From positions 1-44,287 of IMG/VR virus record IMGVR_UViG_3300032163_000298: a stretch of 44,287 nt of DNA. One strand, given 5' to 3'. How positions within the stretch are numbered: position 1 is the stretch's first letter; the number at the start of each line of letters is the position of its first letter. This document shows, in pieces, positions 1 to 44,287 of this stretch. The position numbers and the translations under genes were made by a program. The DNA is from a virus. The notes below the pieces were generated by a model, which was given only the letters and a program-made list of their open reading frames with translations, was not told the origin of the DNA and ran no database searches.

Positions 1-174
1 AACAAGACCGAGACTTACACCTTCACCGTTCCGAAGGATTCAGCGCATGAAGACGCGGGAAAGGAAATCGAGAAGACTTTCGAGTATTCCGAATGTCAGG
101 ATGAAGCTGAGGCACTTACGGTAATCCGTGAAAAAAAGTGGTCGGTTCTTGATATGGTGAACAAGGCGTTGAAG
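1..174. repeat. Terminal redundancy, left copy
   Basis: Bases 1-174 match 44114-44287 except at 128 (G) versus 44241 (A). This is either the overlap left when a circular or permuted genome was linearised, or a short direct terminal repeat. The mismatch changes Arg to His in the spanning gene. Confidence 0.95.
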
Positions 175-345
175 GCTAACGCTCGAAGTTCAGCGTATCA
201 GTCGGCAGTCGCAGTCTACAAGCCTTCTGAGATGACTCCCGATGAGGCAAAGGAACGCATGATTCGTGCCTTTGTCCGACAGGGTGTTTCCGAAACTGTC
301 GCTCGTGCTCAGGTTGAAGCATTGCTCGGAACGGTTGGTCAGTAA
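1..345 (+). CDS. First gene of the plus arm, unknown function (3' part)
   Basis: The reading frame is open from base 1 and ends with TAA at 343-345. It continues the frame that starts with ATG at 44105, so the whole protein is about 117 residues once the molecule is closed. It is hydrophilic, with an acidic N-terminal half and a C-terminal stretch (MTPDEAKERMIRAFVRQG) that looks like a helical bundle. I see no known domain. Codons are richer in C and G at the third position than in most neighbours, which suggests high expression. It is followed by a strong inverted repeat at 354-401. As the first gene after the divergent spacer it is probably early. Confidence 0.75.
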   Translation, partial: NKTETYTFTVPKDSAHEDAGKEIEKTFEYSECQDEAEALTVIREKKWSVLDMVNKALKANARSSAYQSAVAVYKPSEMTPDEAKERMIRAFVRQGVSETVARAQVEALLGTVGQ

Positions 346-1277: not shown

Positions 1278-1343
1278 CGTTTCGTAGTCAATCCCGTTAC
1301 GTTTCCGGGCCGTTTCCAAGTTCATTCCAATACGTTTCCATTC
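1278..1343 (-). repeat. Left 11-bp-spaced array (GGAAACG on the minus strand)
   Basis: CGTTTCC or a close variant begins at 1278, 1289, 1300, 1311, 1322 and 1333, exactly 11 bases apart. Copies at 1300, 1311 and 1333 are exact. 1278 differs at one base; 1289 and 1322 are degenerate but keep the central pyrimidines. Read on the minus strand the motif is GGAAACG, the same core as the array at 1650. An 11-bp step places every copy on the same DNA face. Confidence 0.7.
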
Positions 1344-1489
1344 TCGGAAATCAGGGCTAAATAGCCTCGATTCAACGACTTAGCCTAACCCGTCCCTCAG
1401 AGGGATAGGTCGATAGGCCACTTAAACCGACCTGTTTAGGTGACAAGATGACAGAGTAGACTTCTGGAATTGAGTGTTCTTGTTATTTA

Positions 1490-1508
1490 TTTTTTTTTTT
1501 TTTTTTTT
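1490..1508. repeat. Run of 19 T
   Basis: A homopolymer of 19 T at the midpoint between the two inverted arrays, followed by an all-A/T segment to 1525. Such a run stiffens or melts DNA and is prone to length change, so its exact length may be uncertain. Confidence 0.9.
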
Positions 1509-1649
1509 AATAACTATATAATATAATGGAAAGGCATAGCAATAGTGTCCTAAATTCAGGTCATCTAATAGGGTTATCCCAGGCTAGGCTGAGGGAGGGA
1601 GGAACGCCTAACTCATTGAATCGAAAGGATTTAGGTCCAAAAACTGAAC

Positions 1650-1704
1650 ATGGAAAGTCAATGGAAAGCCAATGGAAAGACAATGGAAACGACATGGAAA
1701 TACT
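1650..1704 (+). repeat. Right 11-bp-spaced array (ATGGAAA)
   Basis: ATGGAAA starts at 1650, 1661, 1672, 1683 and 1694, exactly 11 bases apart. The first three fit ATGGAAAGNCA, and a lone perfect copy of that form lies at 1526-1536. The 1683 copy (ATGGAAACG) is identical to the reverse complement of 1333-1341 in the left array. Same-motif arrays in opposite orientation imply one protein binding both sides. Confidence 0.85.
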
Positions 1705-1843
1705 TACGAAATCATTATATAATAAAAGTAATTCATATGATTAGATAGTGTTTTGGATAGTATAATTATAGAAGTGTCCACATTTGAGGACAGTGACACT
1801 AATTATTGTCACATCTGCCATAATTTGTCAGGTCTAATACCAT

Positions 1844-1875: not shown

Positions 1876-1918
1876 CTTGTGGCCTAGGGTTCGGCACGCG
1901 TCTTGCATTAAAGTCAGT

Positions 1919-2335: not shown

Positions 2336-3196
2336 ATGAATCATACATTTAATCCTTCACCATTAAATACCGATAATTGTAGTATATGTCGGTATTCAGA
2401 ACATCAACACTCATCCGAAGCCATATGTGAAGCTTGTCCTAATGTCGGAGTAGTTGAACAATATAAGGGAATTAATGCCCCTGAAATGTTACTATGCCGA
2501 GAATGCATTGCCAAAGAAAAGGCTAGAGAACAAGATTTCATTGAATATGCATTAAAGTATCAGACTCCTGAATTACAAAATGAAAGACTTGAGACTCATC
2601 GAATGAATGAAGCATTGAAAGCGGCATCTAAGATAGATGAATCTGTAACTGTTACTACAGATTTATTCAATGCAAAGACTGTCGCAATTCTGGAATTAAA
2701 ATCCATTATTGACGCGGATCCTGAAATTGAAAACAAGAATTACAAGTTAGCTGAAATTTTAGCCGATAGACAGAAACATTTCTCGAAAATCATTTTTGAT
2801 AAGAATCAAGAATTGATTGAGGCTCATAATTCTCAGAAGGCTATTCAGTCCTATCTTAATACTCTCGCCAATAAACTCCATTCAGAAGAACGTGAGAAAC
2901 TCAAGTTACAAGATTTGAACTACAAGCCTGATACAACTAAGATTGCCAAACCAAAAGTCATTAAGACTGTTGGAACTGGTATGAAAAAAGAGTCTGTCGC
3001 TGAAGTTAGAAAAGCTTTGAATGAATTGAATAAAGAACTTGGAACTGATTTCCCAGAATTTGTTATTGCAACGATGATGTTAAGTAAGAAACTTTCATTA
3101 GAAGGTGCTATCAATAAACTTCGATTAATGACTAAAGAATCTAAGTCAATAGATAGAAAAGATGATGATGATACGCCTACTCCCGTTCTAGCATAG
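2336..3196 (+). CDS. Zinc-finger plus coiled-coil phage protein
   Basis: 286 residues, ATG behind AAAAGGAAAC. The N-terminal 60 residues carry CxxC-type pairs (CSIC near 16, CEAC near 31, CREC near 54), probably binding zinc. Residues 85-200 are long charged helices, followed by a basic linker and a helical C-terminal domain ending in an acidic tail. The position just before the helicase gene suggests a role in early DNA metabolism, but this is inference only. Confidence 0.7.
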   Translation: MNHTFNPSPLNTDNCSICRYSEHQHSSEAICEACPNVGVVEQYKGINAPEMLLCRECIAKEKAREQDFIEYALKYQTPELQNERLETHRMNEALKAASKIDESVTVTTDLFNAKTVAILELKSIIDADPEIENKNYKLAEILADRQKHFSKIIFDKNQELIEAHNSQKAIQSYLNTLANKLHSEEREKLKLQDLNYKPDTTKIAKPKVIKTVGTGMKKESVAEVRKALNELNKELGTDFPEFVIATMMLSKKLSLEGAINKLRLMTKESKSIDRKDDDDTPTPVLA

Positions 3197-3243: not shown

Positions 3244-3762
3244 ATGTGCCTACCAAATTTCAAAGAATTTCAGCAAATCGATAAATCAAATCCATTAATT
3301 GGATACAGAGTATGGCGCAATCCAATTCTCCCAAAATCACTGGATTTAATGGGTGAAAATAAAAATTATATTTGGGCATTAGATGAATCTATTAAAGGTC
3401 ATGAAGTCTTAAAAATTAATTCGGGTCTATACGCTTATAATAATTATAATTATAATAATTATAATAATTATAATAATAATTATAATTATTATTATAATTA
3501 TAATTATTATAGTTATTATTATAATTATAATTATTATTATTATACAGGAATTATTAAACAATGGGGCAAAACAGCTATTCATTTAACTGGACAGCGTTCT
3601 GAATTTGCTAAAATTGAAACTTTATTTACAATTAAAGAATCAGATATAACCAGAGATACGAAATTTATTAATTGGGTTAAAGAATTTAATAGACTAATAA
3701 TTGAAATCGCTAATAGGTATGAAGCTAATACTATTCATTGGCAGGATTTTTGTAAAATCTAA
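3244..3762 (+). CDS. GLYAY/WGK-type protein with a Tyr-Asn repeat insert
   Basis: 172 residues. The N-terminal part has GYRVWR (20-25) and the C-terminal half has QWGKTAIHLTGQRSEFAKI (106-124). I recall this pattern (GYRxW, GIYAY, LWG, GYRAEYA) from uncharacterised proteins of phages and actinobacteria; function unknown. Between the two, residues 65-100 consist only of Tyr and Asn with one Ser. The insert sits where the family has a loop of variable length, so the fold is probably intact. No overlap with neighbours. An unusually AT-rich gene. Confidence 0.75.
   Translation: MCLPNFKEFQQIDKSNPLIGYRVWRNPILPKSLDLMGENKNYIWALDESIKGHEVLKINSGLYAYNNYNYNNYNNYNNNYNYYYNYNYYSYYYNYNYYYYTGIIKQWGKTAIHLTGQRSEFAKIETLFTIKESDITRDTKFINWVKEFNRLIIEIANRYEANTIHWQDFCKI
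3436..3543 (+). repeat. TAT/AAT codon microsatellite inside a gene
   Basis: 108 bases made only of TAT and AAT codons except one AGT; one G in the whole stretch and no C. It keeps the frame because every unit is a codon. Slippage would change length by whole residues. Confidence 0.95.
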
Positions 3763-3805
3763 ATTAACAATTCATTAAAAATAAATAATAGAATGAGTGA
3801 AACGA

Positions 3806-5926
3806 ATGGAAAGAAATCAAGCAACTAAATTTCTTCGAGAAGAATTAGATAAGTATTCACTCCAATCATGGTCTATCAGACTATCAACTAATCCAAATGA
3901 TAATTTCTTAGGCATCTGTTTAGGAAAAGATAAGTGCATTATGTTAAATGCACATCACATTGGTATTCATCCCACTGAAGATGTAATCAATACCATTTTA
4001 CATGAAGTGGCACATGCTATTGTAGGGACTATACATCAACATGATGAAGTATGGGCTGCTAAGGCTAAAGAAATAGGTTGTACTAATACTTTACCATGTT
4101 CTCATCTTAGTTTAAGCCCTGCTATTATAGATGCAATTAGGTTAGGTCAATCTGTCAAAATTACATTCGAGGAAGAACATCATGTAATTCGTCGGCCTAA
4201 ATATGAAATTACTTTACAGGATAAATGTCCTGATTGTGGTAAGGTTGCAAAAGAACGATGGACTGTAGAAACTACTAATAAGAATGGTGATACAGTCAAA
4301 CTAATTACACTAGAATGTTTTCATGTAATTACTAAAGTAATCCCTCGCGGAACTAAATTTGAGGAATTAGTTAGTAATTGGTGGAAGCCTGAAATTGCAG
4401 CATGTAAGCATAAGTGGACTAAAACTCAATGTGATAATTGTGGCGAATACAGGCTAATGAAATTTCAAGTTGAAGCTTGTTTCTTTGCCGAAGGTGCAAT
4501 GGGTTCTAGTAAAGGTGTAGGACTATTCCATGATACTGGTTTAGGCAAGACAGTCATGGGATTAGGCTACATTCATTTCCATCCTGCTAGAACATTGTAT
4601 GTAGTTAAGTCTGCCATTAAATTCCAATGGTCTAAGCAGATTACAAAGTGGCTTGGACCTAAATTTATGGCTCAAATTATTGAAACTAGCCGAGATTATG
4701 TCTTTCCTAATCTCAATTCTTATATCATTAGTTATGACCTATTAAAGAGATTCAATAAAGAGAAATTAGCAGAACTAGACATTAAATATGTAGTTCTTGA
4801 TGAATGCCAACAAATTAGTAATCCAGATTCCAATAGAACACAGCAACTTAGGAAACTGGTCAATAATCAAGACATTAAAGTAATAGCTTTATCCGCTACA
4901 CCTTGGAAGAATCGGGGTTCTGAATTCTTCCCTATCTTAAACATACTCAATCCTACAAAGTTTTGGAGTTATCAACACTTCATTGATACTTGGATTGAAT
5001 ACTATTGGCATGGTGATAAAAGGAAAATGGGCGGCATTAAGAATGTTGCCAAATTTAAAGAGTATGTTGGAGATTTCATCATTCGCCGAGAATACAATGA
5101 AGTAATGGATGAATTTCCTGAAGTCAATCGCATGAAACTAAACATGCAGATGGACAATATCTTACAAGAACAATATGATGATGCTGAGGATGACTTTGTA
5201 AATTGGTATAATCAGTTTATTATTGATGGAACTGAAGGACAAGTCAATAGTATTCAAATATTAGCTCAACTTGCTAGGGCAAGACATATTGTTGGATTAG
5301 CTAAGATACCAGCTACAGTCGGATTTATTGAAGAATTTATTGATACTACAGATAGAAGTATCGTAGTCTTTGTTCATCATAAAGATGTTGGTATTCACCT
5401 ATTACAAGAATTGAAGAGAGTTCTTCCTTCTAATGTAGTAGTTGAATCTCTCACATCAGCTAATACAGATGAAGAAAAGAATAAAATTGCAGAAAGATTT
5501 GGAATTAGACAGACTGTATTAGTAGCATCAACACTTGCATGCGGCGAAGGTGTAGACGGATTACAGAAAGGATGCGATTCCATATTACATGAAAGACAAT
5601 GGAATCCAGCTAATGAAGACCAAGCTACACCGGGTAGATTTCGTAGAATTGGTCAAATGAGTAAGTCAGTTAATATCACTTGTGTTGAAGCTGATGGAAC
5701 CTGCGACCAAGATTTAGATGGAATTGTAGAACAGAAAAGACTTAGTTTCCATCAAACTATGAATAAGGGTGAAGCTCCATCATGGCGACAGGATGATATT
5801 GCGAAAGAACTTGCAAATAGAATTATTGAAAAACATAAATTGAAAAATAAAGGTAAAACTCCTAAATCCACTGTTAAGCCAGTAGTCAGTTCATTGATGG
5901 AGAATATCAATTATGAAATCCAATAA
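3806..5926 (+). CDS. SprT-like metalloprotease fused to SNF2-family helicase
   Basis: About 706 residues from ATG 3806 (GTG at 3797 would add three). Residues 60-95 contain HEVAHAI (66-72) and a third histidine at 79 in HDEVW, the SprT zinc-protease pattern. Two CxxC ribbons follow (CPDC near 141; CKHK/CDNC near 200-212), as in SprT zinc ribbons. From about 240 there is an SF2 helicase: DTGLGKT (Walker A), LDECQ (Walker B, not DEAH), SATPW (motif III) and QATPGRFRRIGQ (motif VI). SprT proteases cut proteins crosslinked to DNA and SNF2 enzymes move along duplex DNA. The fusion suggests removal of DNA-bound or crosslinked proteins during phage replication. The protease role is inferred. Confidence 0.85.
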   Translation: MERNQATKFLREELDKYSLQSWSIRLSTNPNDNFLGICLGKDKCIMLNAHHIGIHPTEDVINTILHEVAHAIVGTIHQHDEVWAAKAKEIGCTNTLPCSHLSLSPAIIDAIRLGQSVKITFEEEHHVIRRPKYEITLQDKCPDCGKVAKERWTVETTNKNGDTVKLITLECFHVITKVIPRGTKFEELVSNWWKPEIAACKHKWTKTQCDNCGEYRLMKFQVEACFFAEGAMGSSKGVGLFHDTGLGKTVMGLGYIHFHPARTLYVVKSAIKFQWSKQITKWLGPKFMAQIIETSRDYVFPNLNSYIISYDLLKRFNKEKLAELDIKYVVLDECQQISNPDSNRTQQLRKLVNNQDIKVIALSATPWKNRGSEFFPILNILNPTKFWSYQHFIDTWIEYYWHGDKRKMGGIKNVAKFKEYVGDFIIRREYNEVMDEFPEVNRMKLNMQMDNILQEQYDDAEDDFVNWYNQFIIDGTEGQVNSIQILAQLARARHIVGLAKIPATVGFIEEFIDTTDRSIVVFVHHKDVGIHLLQELKRVLPSNVVVESLTSANTDEEKNKIAERFGIRQTVLVASTLACGEGVDGLQKGCDSILHERQWNPANEDQATPGRFRRIGQMSKSVNITCVEADGTCDQDLDGIVEQKRLSFHQTMNKGEAPSWRQDDIAKELANRIIEKHKLKNKGKTPKSTVKPVVSSLMENINYEIQ

Positions 5927-10399: not shown

Positions 10400-10621
10400 A
10401 TGACCCATCTAGCTAAGTACCAACAGACTAATTCATGGAAAGATAAGATAATGATAATGAAATTTTATCATATTTCGTCTAAGTCAACCATTAAACAAAC
10501 GGCTGCATATTTTAGAGTATCTGTTGGCTTAGTTAGTGAGAATCTTCATTTAGCAGATAATTTAGAAGATATTATTAATTGTAAAACAAGACAAGAGGCA
10601 CTTAGTAAACTGAAGGAATAA
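10400..10621 (+). CDS. Small helix-turn-helix protein
   Basis: 73 residues. SKSTIKQTAAYFRVSVGLVSENLHLA (28-53) reads as a helix-turn-helix of the kind where a resolvase or transposase recognises DNA (QTAAYFRVSVGLVS). A candidate regulator or DNA-binding partner for the repeat arrays; this is speculative. Confidence 0.6.
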   Translation: MTHLAKYQQTNSWKDKIMIMKFYHISSKSTIKQTAAYFRVSVGLVSENLHLADNLEDIINCKTRQEALSKLKE

Positions 10622-11027: not shown

Positions 11028-11206
11028 TGGACATCAAATGTTATTCATGTGATAAGCCATTAACTAGAGATGAAGCATATGAATGTTCAAATGAATGTTT
11101 TGAATGTGAAATTAATCGTTTAGTTTGGCGACTTTGTAGAAATGTATTAAAGGGTCGATTAACATTCAGTCGACTTCAAACTAAGATTGCAGCTCATTTA
11201 GGATAA
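11027..11206 (+). CDS. Small cysteine-rich zinc protein
   Basis: 59 residues between TAATG overlaps on both sides. CYSC (5-8), CSNEC (20-24) and CEIN imply zinc binding, followed by a basic helix (RLVWRLCRNVLKGRLTFSRL). Directly coupled to the DNA polymerase gene, so probably a replication accessory. Confidence 0.6.
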   Translation: MDIKCYSCDKPLTRDEAYECSNECFECEINRLVWRLCRNVLKGRLTFSRLQTKIAAHLG

Positions 11207-13815
11207 TGGATAAAAAGTATATAGCAGGTAGAGGCCCATTAGGGGCTAAAATAATGATTGTATGTGAATGTCCCACATATGAGGATATACAATCAGGGAA
11301 ATTATTTACTAAATCTAGAGAACTAGACCAACTGTTAAGAGAAAATGGAGTTAATAAAGAATCATGTTGGCTAACAGCAGTTAGTAAATATCATGTAACT
11401 CCCAATTCTGGTAAGAAAAAAATACCATTCGCCATTCGAGCTAAAAATGAAGGTATAGACGTTCATCAGCAGATAATGGAATTACAAAATGAGGTTAATT
11501 CAATTGAACCTAATGTAATTCTAGGAGTTGGTAAAACTGCATTATGGGCAATGACGGGTAAAACTGATATAAGTAAATTCAGAGGTAGTATATTACTTGG
11601 AATGGGACGTAAGTTTGTTCCAACATACAATCCAGAACATCTTAGTTGGCAAGCCTCTGATGTTGAGTTTAAAGGCTATTGGAATAAACAAATAATTGCA
11701 TTTGATATTAAAAGAGCCTTAAGTCAATCGGGATTTCCTGAAAGAAATATACCCAATCGAATATTACAAATAGCCAAATCATCATATGACTTATCTCAAT
11801 ACATCGACCGATGGAAATCAAAGACTAGAATGGCGGTTGATATTGAAGCCGGGGGACATTTCCTTCCCATATGTATTGGAATATCTTTTGATAAAAGTCA
11901 TGGAATCACAGCCCCTTTATGGAATAGAGACAGTATATCAAATATACCAGATTCAGATTTAGTTCAATGTTGGATTTTACTCTCAGAATTATTAGCAACT
12001 AAAGAAATTGTAGGTCAAAATTTTAATTATGACCGAGATAAGATTAAAAGACTCGGATTCGTAGTTCGGAATTTTGTTAGTGATACAATGCTTAAGGCTA
12101 TGGCATTAGACCCAGAATGGCCCAAAGGATTAGCATTTAATCAATCTATTTATACTGAAGAACCTTTCTATAAAGATGAGGGAATGTATCAAGGTTCTAT
12201 TCAAGACTTACTTACAGGTTGTGCGAGGGATGCATGTGTAACTCTTGAAATAGATGAAAATATGGAACCTTTATTAATCCAACTAAATCAAAAAAAGTTC
12301 TATGAAAACTTTCTTATGCGTCTACCTGACCTATATTGGGGTATAGAACAACAGGGATTCAATATTGATGGTATTGCAAGAGATGCATTAATGCAAAAAT
12401 ATATTGCATGGGATGAACGCATTCGATATGACTTATTTAAATTAATAGGAACAGAAGTTAATGTAAATTCACCTAAACAAGTAAGTACATTACTATATGA
12501 TAATTTTAAACTTCCTCCACGTAAGGGAACAAGTGAAGAAGATTTAACTGATTTATTGAATCTCCAATCATTAGAAAAGCATTGGAATAAAAATGAAAAT
12601 CATAGGAAAGTTATTGAACTCATCTTGGAAGGTAGGCGTGTACGCAAAAGTATATCTACGTATCTTATGGCTATGCCTGATTTTGATGGCCGAATGCGTA
12701 CAACTTATTTCCCATGCTTGGAAACTGGTCGTTCGTCAACTGGACAGCAAGACCCTCCTATACGCCCTACTGTCGATGTTATTGATGAGACTGGAAAAAA
12801 GAAAACGAGAGTATTAGGCACAGCTTTCCAAACAATGACTAAACATGGAGATATTGGACAAGATGTTCGTTCAATGTATATACCAGATAGTGAAGATGAA
12901 ATATTTGTACAAGCTGACTCAGCACAGGCAGAGGCAAGAATTATCTTCTTACTAGCAGATGATGAGCAAGCATTAGAGGATATAGAAACTCATGACTATC
13001 ATGCACTTACAGCTTCATGGTTTTTCGGGGGAACTGAAGATGATTATTCAAAAAAGAAATTGGGTTACGAAAGCCCTATTCGATTTGCTGGTAAAACACT
13101 TAGGCATGCAGGTCATCTTGGAGCAGGCAAACGTAGGGCGGCAATTAGTGTCAATACAGACGCCCGAAAATATAAAATTCCAATTGTAATTACGGAATCA
13201 ATTGCCGAGCGTGCATTAAAAATCTTTCATAGTAAACAACCTAAAATACAAGGTATTTTCCATAAATCAATTATAGACCAGCTTTCAAAGAATAGGCAAT
13301 TATATGCTCCGGTCCCGTTCGGAATTGACGCCCCTATTGGAGGGATTAGAACTTGTTATGAACGATGGGGAGATGAACTTAACAGACAAGCCTTTAGTTA
13401 TATACCACAACGGTCAATTTCTGATAACACTAAGGGTGCCGGAATTAGGATTAAAGAACGAATACCTTCAATTAAAATTACTATGGAATCCCATGACTCA
13501 CTCTTATTCTGTATTCCTAAGTCAAAACTTTCGGAATATGCTCCTATCATTAAACAGGAATTTGAGCGCCCAATTGATTTTAGGACTTGTGTTATTCGCA
13601 GAAGACCAATTGTTATTCCATGCGAACTCGAAATAGGTACTAACTACCAAGAATTTTCGAAATACAAATTTATGACTCCAACTGATAATAGAATTATAGT
13701 ACCCAAAATGGTTCCTAAGACGCCGAATGAAGAATTTACAGCCCCTCCTATTGGGGGAGATTCTAAATTAACTGATATTATATATAATGAGCAAATAAGA
13801 AAGTTGGGATTATGA
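11206..13815 (+). CDS. polA: UDG-like domain fused to family A DNA polymerase
   Basis: 869 residues. Residues 1-170 match the family 4 uracil-DNA glycosylase layout: GRGPLGAKIMIV (8-19), a PTYED element in place of GEAPGxxED (23-27), LGVGKTAL and TYNPEHL (140-146, usual HPS/HPA histidine replaced by Asn). Residues 205-350 are a 3'-5' exonuclease: DIE (212-214), NFNYD (272-276) and RDA (341-343). The polymerase follows with motif A DSAQAEAR (570-577), motif B around K629 and HAGHLGAG (633-640), and motif C SHDS (761-764). The O-helix positions usually Phe762 and Tyr766 (E. coli) read His and Leu. Main replicative polymerase. Confidence 0.9.
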   Translation: MDKKYIAGRGPLGAKIMIVCECPTYEDIQSGKLFTKSRELDQLLRENGVNKESCWLTAVSKYHVTPNSGKKKIPFAIRAKNEGIDVHQQIMELQNEVNSIEPNVILGVGKTALWAMTGKTDISKFRGSILLGMGRKFVPTYNPEHLSWQASDVEFKGYWNKQIIAFDIKRALSQSGFPERNIPNRILQIAKSSYDLSQYIDRWKSKTRMAVDIEAGGHFLPICIGISFDKSHGITAPLWNRDSISNIPDSDLVQCWILLSELLATKEIVGQNFNYDRDKIKRLGFVVRNFVSDTMLKAMALDPEWPKGLAFNQSIYTEEPFYKDEGMYQGSIQDLLTGCARDACVTLEIDENMEPLLIQLNQKKFYENFLMRLPDLYWGIEQQGFNIDGIARDALMQKYIAWDERIRYDLFKLIGTEVNVNSPKQVSTLLYDNFKLPPRKGTSEEDLTDLLNLQSLEKHWNKNENHRKVIELILEGRRVRKSISTYLMAMPDFDGRMRTTYFPCLETGRSSTGQQDPPIRPTVDVIDETGKKKTRVLGTAFQTMTKHGDIGQDVRSMYIPDSEDEIFVQADSAQAEARIIFLLADDEQALEDIETHDYHALTASWFFGGTEDDYSKKKLGYESPIRFAGKTLRHAGHLGAGKRRAAISVNTDARKYKIPIVITESIAERALKIFHSKQPKIQGIFHKSIIDQLSKNRQLYAPVPFGIDAPIGGIRTCYERWGDELNRQAFSYIPQRSISDNTKGAGIRIKERIPSIKITMESHDSLLFCIPKSKLSEYAPIIKQEFERPIDFRTCVIRRRPIVIPCELEIGTNYQEFSKYKFMTPTDNRIIVPKMVPKTPNEEFTAPPIGGDSKLTDIIYNEQIRKLGL

Positions 13816-42694: not shown

Positions 42695-43261
42695 TTATTC
42701 CTTAGCATAAATTACATCGTAGGATTCTTCATTACGAGTATGGGGTTTATAAAAAATAAATTGTGCGTTAGTTTGATTGACTGGAACCTGCGGAGTATCT
42801 GGTTCCATATGCTTAATTACGATAGCCATATCTTTCGCAATACCAGCAGCTTCTCTAGCTGTGGTATCCCCAAGAGTTTCTTCATTGATTCTACTTAATG
42901 CAATCTTTAATTTACTCATGGCCTTAAAGGAAATTTTATCCTTTCGGCCCTGGATGTGTTGAGTTAATTCTGTATTGGGTTTATCATATGATGCAGTGGA
43001 TGTTGCACCATTAGCATATGCAGATACTGAACTTGGAGATATACCTAATTGATTGGCTAGCGCGAGTGCTTCAGAACGTCCATCTATTTCCGATGTCTCA
43101 CCAATAATCTTACGTAATGACTCAGGTGTATTAGTATTACCTATACCCCTACCTTTGGGATTCATATCAATTACAGTAGGCTTCGATACAGGCCGGCCGA
43201 CTGTATTCTGTACTTCATTTTCAAATTCTGAATCGTCAACAACACCCATTGGCATAGTCAT
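42695..43261 (-). CDS. terS: Terminase small subunit candidate
   Basis: 188 residues, ATG behind AGGATTA. A basic N-terminus, then ESLRKIIGETSEIDGRSEAL and LANQLGISPSSVSAYANGAT (about 68-87), a helix-turn-helix, followed by a long helix and C-terminal tail. First gene of the late arm upstream of the virion genes, where small terminases often lie. Binds the packaging site if correct. Confidence 0.6.
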   Translation of the reverse strand: MTMPMGVVDDSEFENEVQNTVGRPVSKPTVIDMNPKGRGIGNTNTPESLRKIIGETSEIDGRSEALALANQLGISPSSVSAYANGATSTASYDKPNTELTQHIQGRKDKISFKAMSKLKIALSRINEETLGDTTAREAAGIAKDMAIVIKHMEPDTPQVPVNQTNAQFIFYKPHTRNEESYDVIYAKE

Positions 43262-43606: not shown

Positions 43607-43661
43607 CTGCACATTATGACATAGTATTGCACAGAATTATACATTGGCATGGTTTATAAAT

Positions 43662-43741
43662 GTCATATAAAGTCATATTAAGTCATATAAAGATTACAAA
43701 TTATTACAAACTATTACAAACTATTACAATTGATTACATGG
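43662..43741 (+). repeat. Eight-unit 10-bp tandem array
   Basis: Units start at 43662, 43672, 43682 (GTCATATWAA) and at 43692, 43702, 43712, 43722, 43732 (KATTACAAWY-like), each exactly 10 bases apart. A degenerate unit may precede at 43652. One helical turn per unit puts all copies on one DNA face. Confidence 0.85.
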
Positions 43742-44104: not shown

Positions 44105-44287
44105 ATGAATGCTAACAAGACCGAGACTTACACCTTCACCGTTCCGAAGGATTCAGCGCATGAAGACGCGGGAAAGGAAATCGAGAAGACTTTCGAGTAT
44201 TCCGAATGTCAGGATGAAGCTGAGGCACTTACGGTAATCCATGAAAAAAAGTGGTCGGTTCTTGATATGGTGAACAAGGCGTTGAAG
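44105..44287 (+). CDS. First gene of the plus arm (5' part)
   Basis: ATG at 44105 behind AAGGA (44092-44096), 61 codons to the end of the window, in the same frame as the part at 1-345. Only the start and first three codons are unique to this copy; the rest repeats bases 1-174. Differs from the left copy at 44241, giving His in place of Arg. Confidence 0.8.
   Translation, partial: MNANKTETYTFTVPKDSAHEDAGKEIEKTFEYSECQDEAEALTVIHEKKWSVLDMVNKALK
44114..44287. repeat. Terminal redundancy, right copy
   Basis: Matches bases 1-174 with a single mismatch (A at 44241 against G at 128). Closing the molecule here gives a length of about 44113 bases. Confidence 0.95.

Follow-up and report, generated by a model that had tools for sequence, protein, structure and literature searches.

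The window analysed in this work is the whole 44,287 bp stretch of the IMG/VR virus record IMGVR_UViG_3300032163_000298. The sequence of positions 1-174 is found again at 44114-44287 with a single mismatch, and the contig with this 174-bp terminal overlap is a circularly permuted phage genome carrying one variant base. A non-coding element composed of two inverted arrays of 11-bp repeats and a T-rich centre is located directly upstream of the replication genes. Directly left of the element is the gene of a conserved small protein (1-345, plus strand), which starts at 44105 and spans the circular junction. The first gene of the leftward operon (42695-43261, minus strand) encodes a conserved HTH protein, and two adjacent tandem arrays with a 10-bp period (TATAAAGTCA and ATTACAAACT, 43655-43738) lie between the leftward late genes and the rightward early genes. 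The rightward gene set includes a conserved Cys-rich protein next to the element (2336-3196, plus strand), the SprT-SNF2 helicase (3797-5926, plus strand), which is the first of the replication genes and bears an N-terminal SprT-like domain, a nuclease, a Sak4-like protein, DNA polymerase A (PolA; 11206-13815, plus strand) with an N-terminal domain of the uracil-DNA-glycosylase (UDG) family, and a DUF3987 protein. Positions 3244-3762 encode an Asn/Tyr-rich low-complexity protein by TAATTATAA-type repeats.

The left array (1278-1343, minus strand) is composed of six 11-bp units running outward, two of them degenerate. From 1343 down to 1278 their minus-strand sequences are ATGGAAACGTA, TTGGAATGAAC, TTGGAAACGGC, CCGGAAACGTA, ACGGGATTGAC and TACGAAACGGT, exactly 6 x 11 bp. 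The right array (1650-1715, plus strand) also has six outward-running 11-bp units, starting at 1650, 1661, 1672, 1683 and 1694, with the sixth at 1705-1715. The original prediction had described the six left-hand units with their 11-bp step, five right-hand units at 1650-1704 and a 9-mer common to both arrays, and its coordinates are all exact; the 9-mer ATGGAAACG is present once per strand, at 1683 and, in reverse, at 1333. To this can be added the sixth right-hand unit, TACGAAATCAT, which that prediction lacked. Since its TACGAAA matches the sixth unit of the left array, TACGAAACGGT, the arrays are six plus six with the same outermost unit. The inverted homology between the two arms reaches well inward of the arrays. 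Compared to dinucleotide shuffles, the arms of the window gave p = 0.005 (left) and p = 0.0025 (right). Taken by itself in the window the left array is modest, with 25/44 identity at lag 11, and it is therefore the relatives which decide whether the periodicity is real.

Relatives were collected by the SprT-SNF2 helicase (3, then 34 viral contigs) and by the small protein left of the element (67 contigs). The scored set was composed of 36 non-redundant elements with 61 scorable arms, for which lags 8-16 were compared and 400 dinucleotide shuffles were performed per arm. The best lag was 11 bp in 56 of the 61 arms, nearly all of which beat every or nearly every one of their shuffles, and the arrays point outward in all 23 phages with both arms scored. 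In relatives such as G007, G010, G017 and G001 no other stretch of the genome is as strongly 11-bp-periodic as the two arrays, and this also holds for the partial genome G002. Further paired elements, beyond the 36, are present in L153, L182 and L183. A strong core, R-G-A-A-A/T, marks the consensus unit, whose positions 3-5 are nearly free among phages and common to both arms of one phage; the similarity of arm motifs is 0.640 within a phage versus 0.494 between phages (permutation p = 5e-5). The prediction that period, orientation and symmetry would be kept while the sequence drifts is thus borne out by these arms and pairs. It had also named relatives lacking an array, or a spacing departing from 11 bp, as the mark of a chance repeat: the spacing is kept, but arrays were not found in five relatives (G014, G022, G024, G028 and L154), some of which still have inverted arms around a T-rich centre. 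The element is real and family-wide, and not a chance repeat.

Each arm carries more than its array. A 27-bp dyad, CTAAGT-N15-ACTTAG, is found inward of the array in 45 of the 61 arms versus 2.8 expected; in the window the dyads are CTAAGTCGTTGAATCGAGGCTATTTAG (1357-1383, minus strand) and CTAACTCATTGAATCGAAAGGATTTAG (1608-1634, plus strand), each in phase with its array. In dyad-bearing arms the distance from the dyad centre to the first core G is 31-32 bp, or about 11 bp (one unit) more or less. The helical phase between dyad and array has a Rayleigh p of about 1e-21, a figure which overstates the evidence since the sequences are related and not independent, while the distance from array to array is not helically phased (p > 0.4). 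Both arms are thus rigid modules, independent of one another across the centre. As regards the looping regulator first suggested, a loop holding both arrays in helical register does not agree with this unphased distance. The architecture of an arm is a 27-bp dyad and, three helical turns on, 5-6 direct 11-bp repeats, with the two arms opposed about the centre. Constrained are period, phase, orientation and the easily melted centre; unit positions 3-5 and arm spacing drift.

A second palindrome, TGTCC-N8-GGACA, is also found in the arms, at a distance of about 33 bp from the T run. In the window it is represented there by the operator-like palindromes TGTCACCTAAACAGGTCG (1428-1445, minus strand), which by direct sequence reading is a variant, and TGTCCTAAATTCAGGTCA (1546-1563, plus strand). 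A perfect palindrome, TGTCCACATTTGAGGACA (1775-1792, plus strand), lies right of the right array. Sites of this type cluster around the element in most relatives, and in the window a further one (859-876) closely precedes the small gene at 924.

The centre, a putative unwinding element (1467-1526, plus strand), contains the T19 run (1490-1508) together with the AT-rich DNA that follows it. Ranked by nearest-neighbour energies, the centre comes out as the least stable 60-bp segment genome-wide in seven out of ten genomes and as the second, third and fifth in the others; fifth is its rank in the genome of the window, which is AT-rich. The arrays start about 110-220 bp away from the T run. The coincidence of the T19 run with the midpoint between the arrays, described for the window, holds there, but the midpoint is not exact in relatives. 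Most relatives have a run of T15-T28, always on the same strand and followed by AATAATATATAATATTATA-like DNA. Array-bearing elements with only T6-T10 are found in L153, L032, L016 and L182, and the poly-T tract is a usual part of the element but not an essential one.

Between the right array and the replication genes sits a sigma-54-type promoter, TGGYAY-N5-YTTGCA, which in the window is CGGCACGCGTCTTGCA (GG-N10-GC; 1892-1907, plus strand) and reads into the early and replication genes. The perfect palindrome at 1775-1792 is about 117 bp upstream of it, and relatives have TGTCC-N8-GGACA dyads on one or both sides of the promoter GG, at about 115 bp on the upstream side and at 34-35 bp on the downstream side. 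The strict pattern is present in 11 of 26 elements in forward and in none in reverse orientation (0.2 expected), and a relaxed form is present in most relatives. No sigma-54 activator ATPase (PF00158) was found in ten genomes, with a positive control, so that the promoter would require an activator of the host.

Shortly before PolA is the gene of p73 (10400-10621, plus strand), a small HTH protein of 73-81 residues with a ParB-like DNA-binding fold. Of the 73 residues in its AlphaFold model (pLDDT 95), 72 superpose on the Spo0J DNA-binding domain with a Z of 8.0 and an rmsd of 2.0. Its nine best structural matches are all ParB, Spo0J or Noc. For a helical protein of such small size a Z of 8.0 is borderline, and the sequence similarity does not reach significance. 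The p73 gene is found in the complete array-bearing genomes and is absent from the complete array-less G022, but present in array-less G014; this co-occurrence is a correlation confounded by ancestry. Its predicted fold and its co-occurrence make p73 the foremost candidate for binding the dyads or the arrays, though an unproven one. The HTH protein of the leftward operon was also considered as array binder and rejected, since its recognition helix is also conserved in array-less phages. Two different p73 genes are present in G017 (IMGVR_UViG_3300036851_000016, 62,483 bp; L025), one of them identical to that of L011, and this record is probably a chimaeric assembly of two phages.

Judged from its layout, the element is probably, though far from certainly, a replication origin, in which two inverted iteron modules would flank an unwinding element. 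This function is favoured because in most relatives the centre is the stability minimum of the genome, the repeats keep a helical phase and the genes for replication adjoin; both the tandem repeats of initiator size in helical phase and the adjacent AT-rich unwinding element by which iteron origins are recognised are present. Of the functions suggested at the outset, the origin is the best supported, while partition is weakened. The five array-less relatives count against the origin, and one of them, G014, has p73. No DnaA boxes were found in the 36 elements and no known initiator family was recognised. GC skew has a minimum near the element, but it follows gene orientation and transcription and has no turn at the antipode; both GC skew and third-position skew were discarded as origin indicators, being confounded by transcription.

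At such an origin a dimeric protein may dock on each dyad and nucleate a wrap of one protein per turn over the adjoining array, on a single face of the DNA. Wraps on both sides would stress the centre, so that the T tract and AT-rich DNA would open, and helicase and polymerase could load there for replication in both directions. One of the two binders could be p73, the best candidate though an unproven one. A link between initiation and early transcription may be provided by the protein recognising TGTCC-N8-GGACA, a palindrome found both in the arms and at the early promoter. Iteron origins and those of SPP1 work broadly by such a scheme (PMC5043065, PMC6316719).

Among viral origins, herpes simplex oriS and oriL share with the element the inverted initiator sites around an AT-rich centre, but belong to an unrelated virus with unrelated proteins and have no 11-bp arrays. 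In known origins, iterons in helical phase are found together with an unwinding element of AT-rich DNA (PMC5043065; SPP1 oriL/oriR, PMC6316719). A close counterpart is that of the Bacillus phage SPP1, a lytic phage with a genome of similar size, whose oriL and oriR have direct repeats bound by a phage origin protein and an adjoining AT-rich unwinding element (PMC6316719). Its repeats are, however, one-sided as described, and one origin lies inside gene 38 (PMC6316719), whereas the element is built from a pair of inverted modules with one dyad apiece; a homologue of gp38 was not recognised in the phage of the element. Lambda ori and the iteron plasmids likewise have arrays of initiator sites near A+T-rich DNA, but in lambda the iterons are inverted repeats of 19 bp to which O dimers bind, as opposed to 11-bp units, and iteron plasmids mostly carry one direct array and not two mirrored ones (PMC5043065). 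E. coli oriC has two oppositely arranged arrays of initiator sites and an unwinding element (PMC5043065); its DUE lies at one side and its sites are DnaA 9-mers with no 11-bp period, while the element is without DnaA boxes. None of the literature compared describes an inverted two-sided layout in which each arm has a dyad. It is conceivable, if on balance doubtful, that the element represents a new class of phage origin, in which inverted modules of dyad and array, a poly-T unwinding element, a stand-alone ParB-fold HTH initiator and sigma-54-driven replication genes would be combined. It would be unusual for a phage to have its replication module controlled by sigma-54. The element is tied to a single candidate binder and to an early promoter of the sigma-54 type, and such a promoter would be an unusual switch for phage replication.

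An early-gene regulatory centre, a packaging site and a partition site are all weaker than the origin as explanations. In the first of these, which we regard as unlikely, the arms would be enhancers or silencers of the sigma-54-type promoter and the unstable centre incidental. The position of this promoter right of the element in most relatives agrees with it, as do the TGTCC-N8-GGACA sites shared by promoter and arms, and in a few right arms TTGACA-type promoters are found instead. The left arm is nevertheless equally conserved, although the genes left of the element run toward it; mirrored, it faces no leftward operon start, which argues against a purely transcriptional role. The two arrays are moreover out of helical register, and an enhancer needs no symmetric element about a stability minimum. 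The right arms of array-less L154, G022 and G024 have a strong TTGACA-N17-TATAAT-type promoter mostly absent in array-bearing relatives, and arrays and promoters of this type might substitute for one another.

It is also rather improbable that the element is a pac site, where a ring of small-terminase HTHs would wrap the 11-bp-phased arrays and the large terminase would cut near the T tract. The expected binder would be the conserved HTH protein at 42695-43261, a possible small terminase and the only TerS candidate (of putative identity), which in the window starts about 2.1 kb left of the element. TerS rings bear weak HTHs (PMC4737164), and in SPP1 pac the TerS-bound pacL and pacR flank the cut site, so that an HTH protein is bound on either side of a central segment (PMC6316719, PMC4737164). 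However, SPP1 pac overlaps the terS promoter and gene, is asymmetric and is without long 11-bp arrays, and packaging is directional where the element is mirror-symmetric. The HTH protein is found in array-less relatives too and its identity as TerS is unproven: database comparison gave no identity and its AlphaFold model is poor (pLDDT 61). Several contigs end at the T tract, as would suit a cut there, but the T counts differ between the two ends of G014 and of G026 and contigs degrade to low-quality sequence after the T run, so that the frequent breaks are accounted for by homopolymer trouble. With other genomes closing by 127-bp overlaps, a physical genome end at the T tract was ruled out.

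A partition or DNA-positioning site like R1 parC or parS is less probable again. The analogy to R1 parC, drawn from the start, holds for the two clusters of about five 11-bp repeats with a spacer between them, and p73 shares the fold of the ParB DNA-binding domain. The two sets of five repeats in R1 parC are direct (PMC4949242), all run in one direction, flank the par promoter and need ParR and ParM, neither of which was recognised in the phage of the element (PMC4949242, PMC9426499 for parC), whereas the repeats of the element are inverted in 23 of 23 pairs. No ParA ATPase (PF13614) was found in ten genomes, with a positive control; the search for ParM (PF06406) gave no match in the genomes, nor in its control genomes, which makes it uninformative. 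With its 73-81 residues p73 aligns only to the DNA-binding domain of ParB and is without the CTPase and dimerisation domains, and in the window neither an integrase nor a lysogeny gene was noticed. A structured RNA, in which transcribed arms would form hairpins from dyads able to fold on a single strand, is very improbable, since inner dyad positions pair at 0.32 versus 0.50 predicted from column composition and no Rfam match was credible (one at 13.7 bits versus a gathering score of 428).

With the replication origin as the preferred explanation, an exact origin prediction is offered for dozens of uncultured phage genomes. No cultured relative of this family was found at the DNA level, and capsid and left-flank protein had no match among 50,697 phage records. 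Its TerL is only about 31% identical to that of HMO-2011-group phages, and the three genomes of that group which were checked have no 11-bp arrays. As to hosts, the scan of genomes with the helicase gave no match, and that with the capsid gave only two MAG contigs of unrelated taxa. Both are phage contigs of the family, VBAS01000296.1 (L189) binned in a Bacteroidetes MAG and JACPXY010000035.1 (L190) in a Pacearchaeota MAG, and these assignments are likely to be due to mis-binning.
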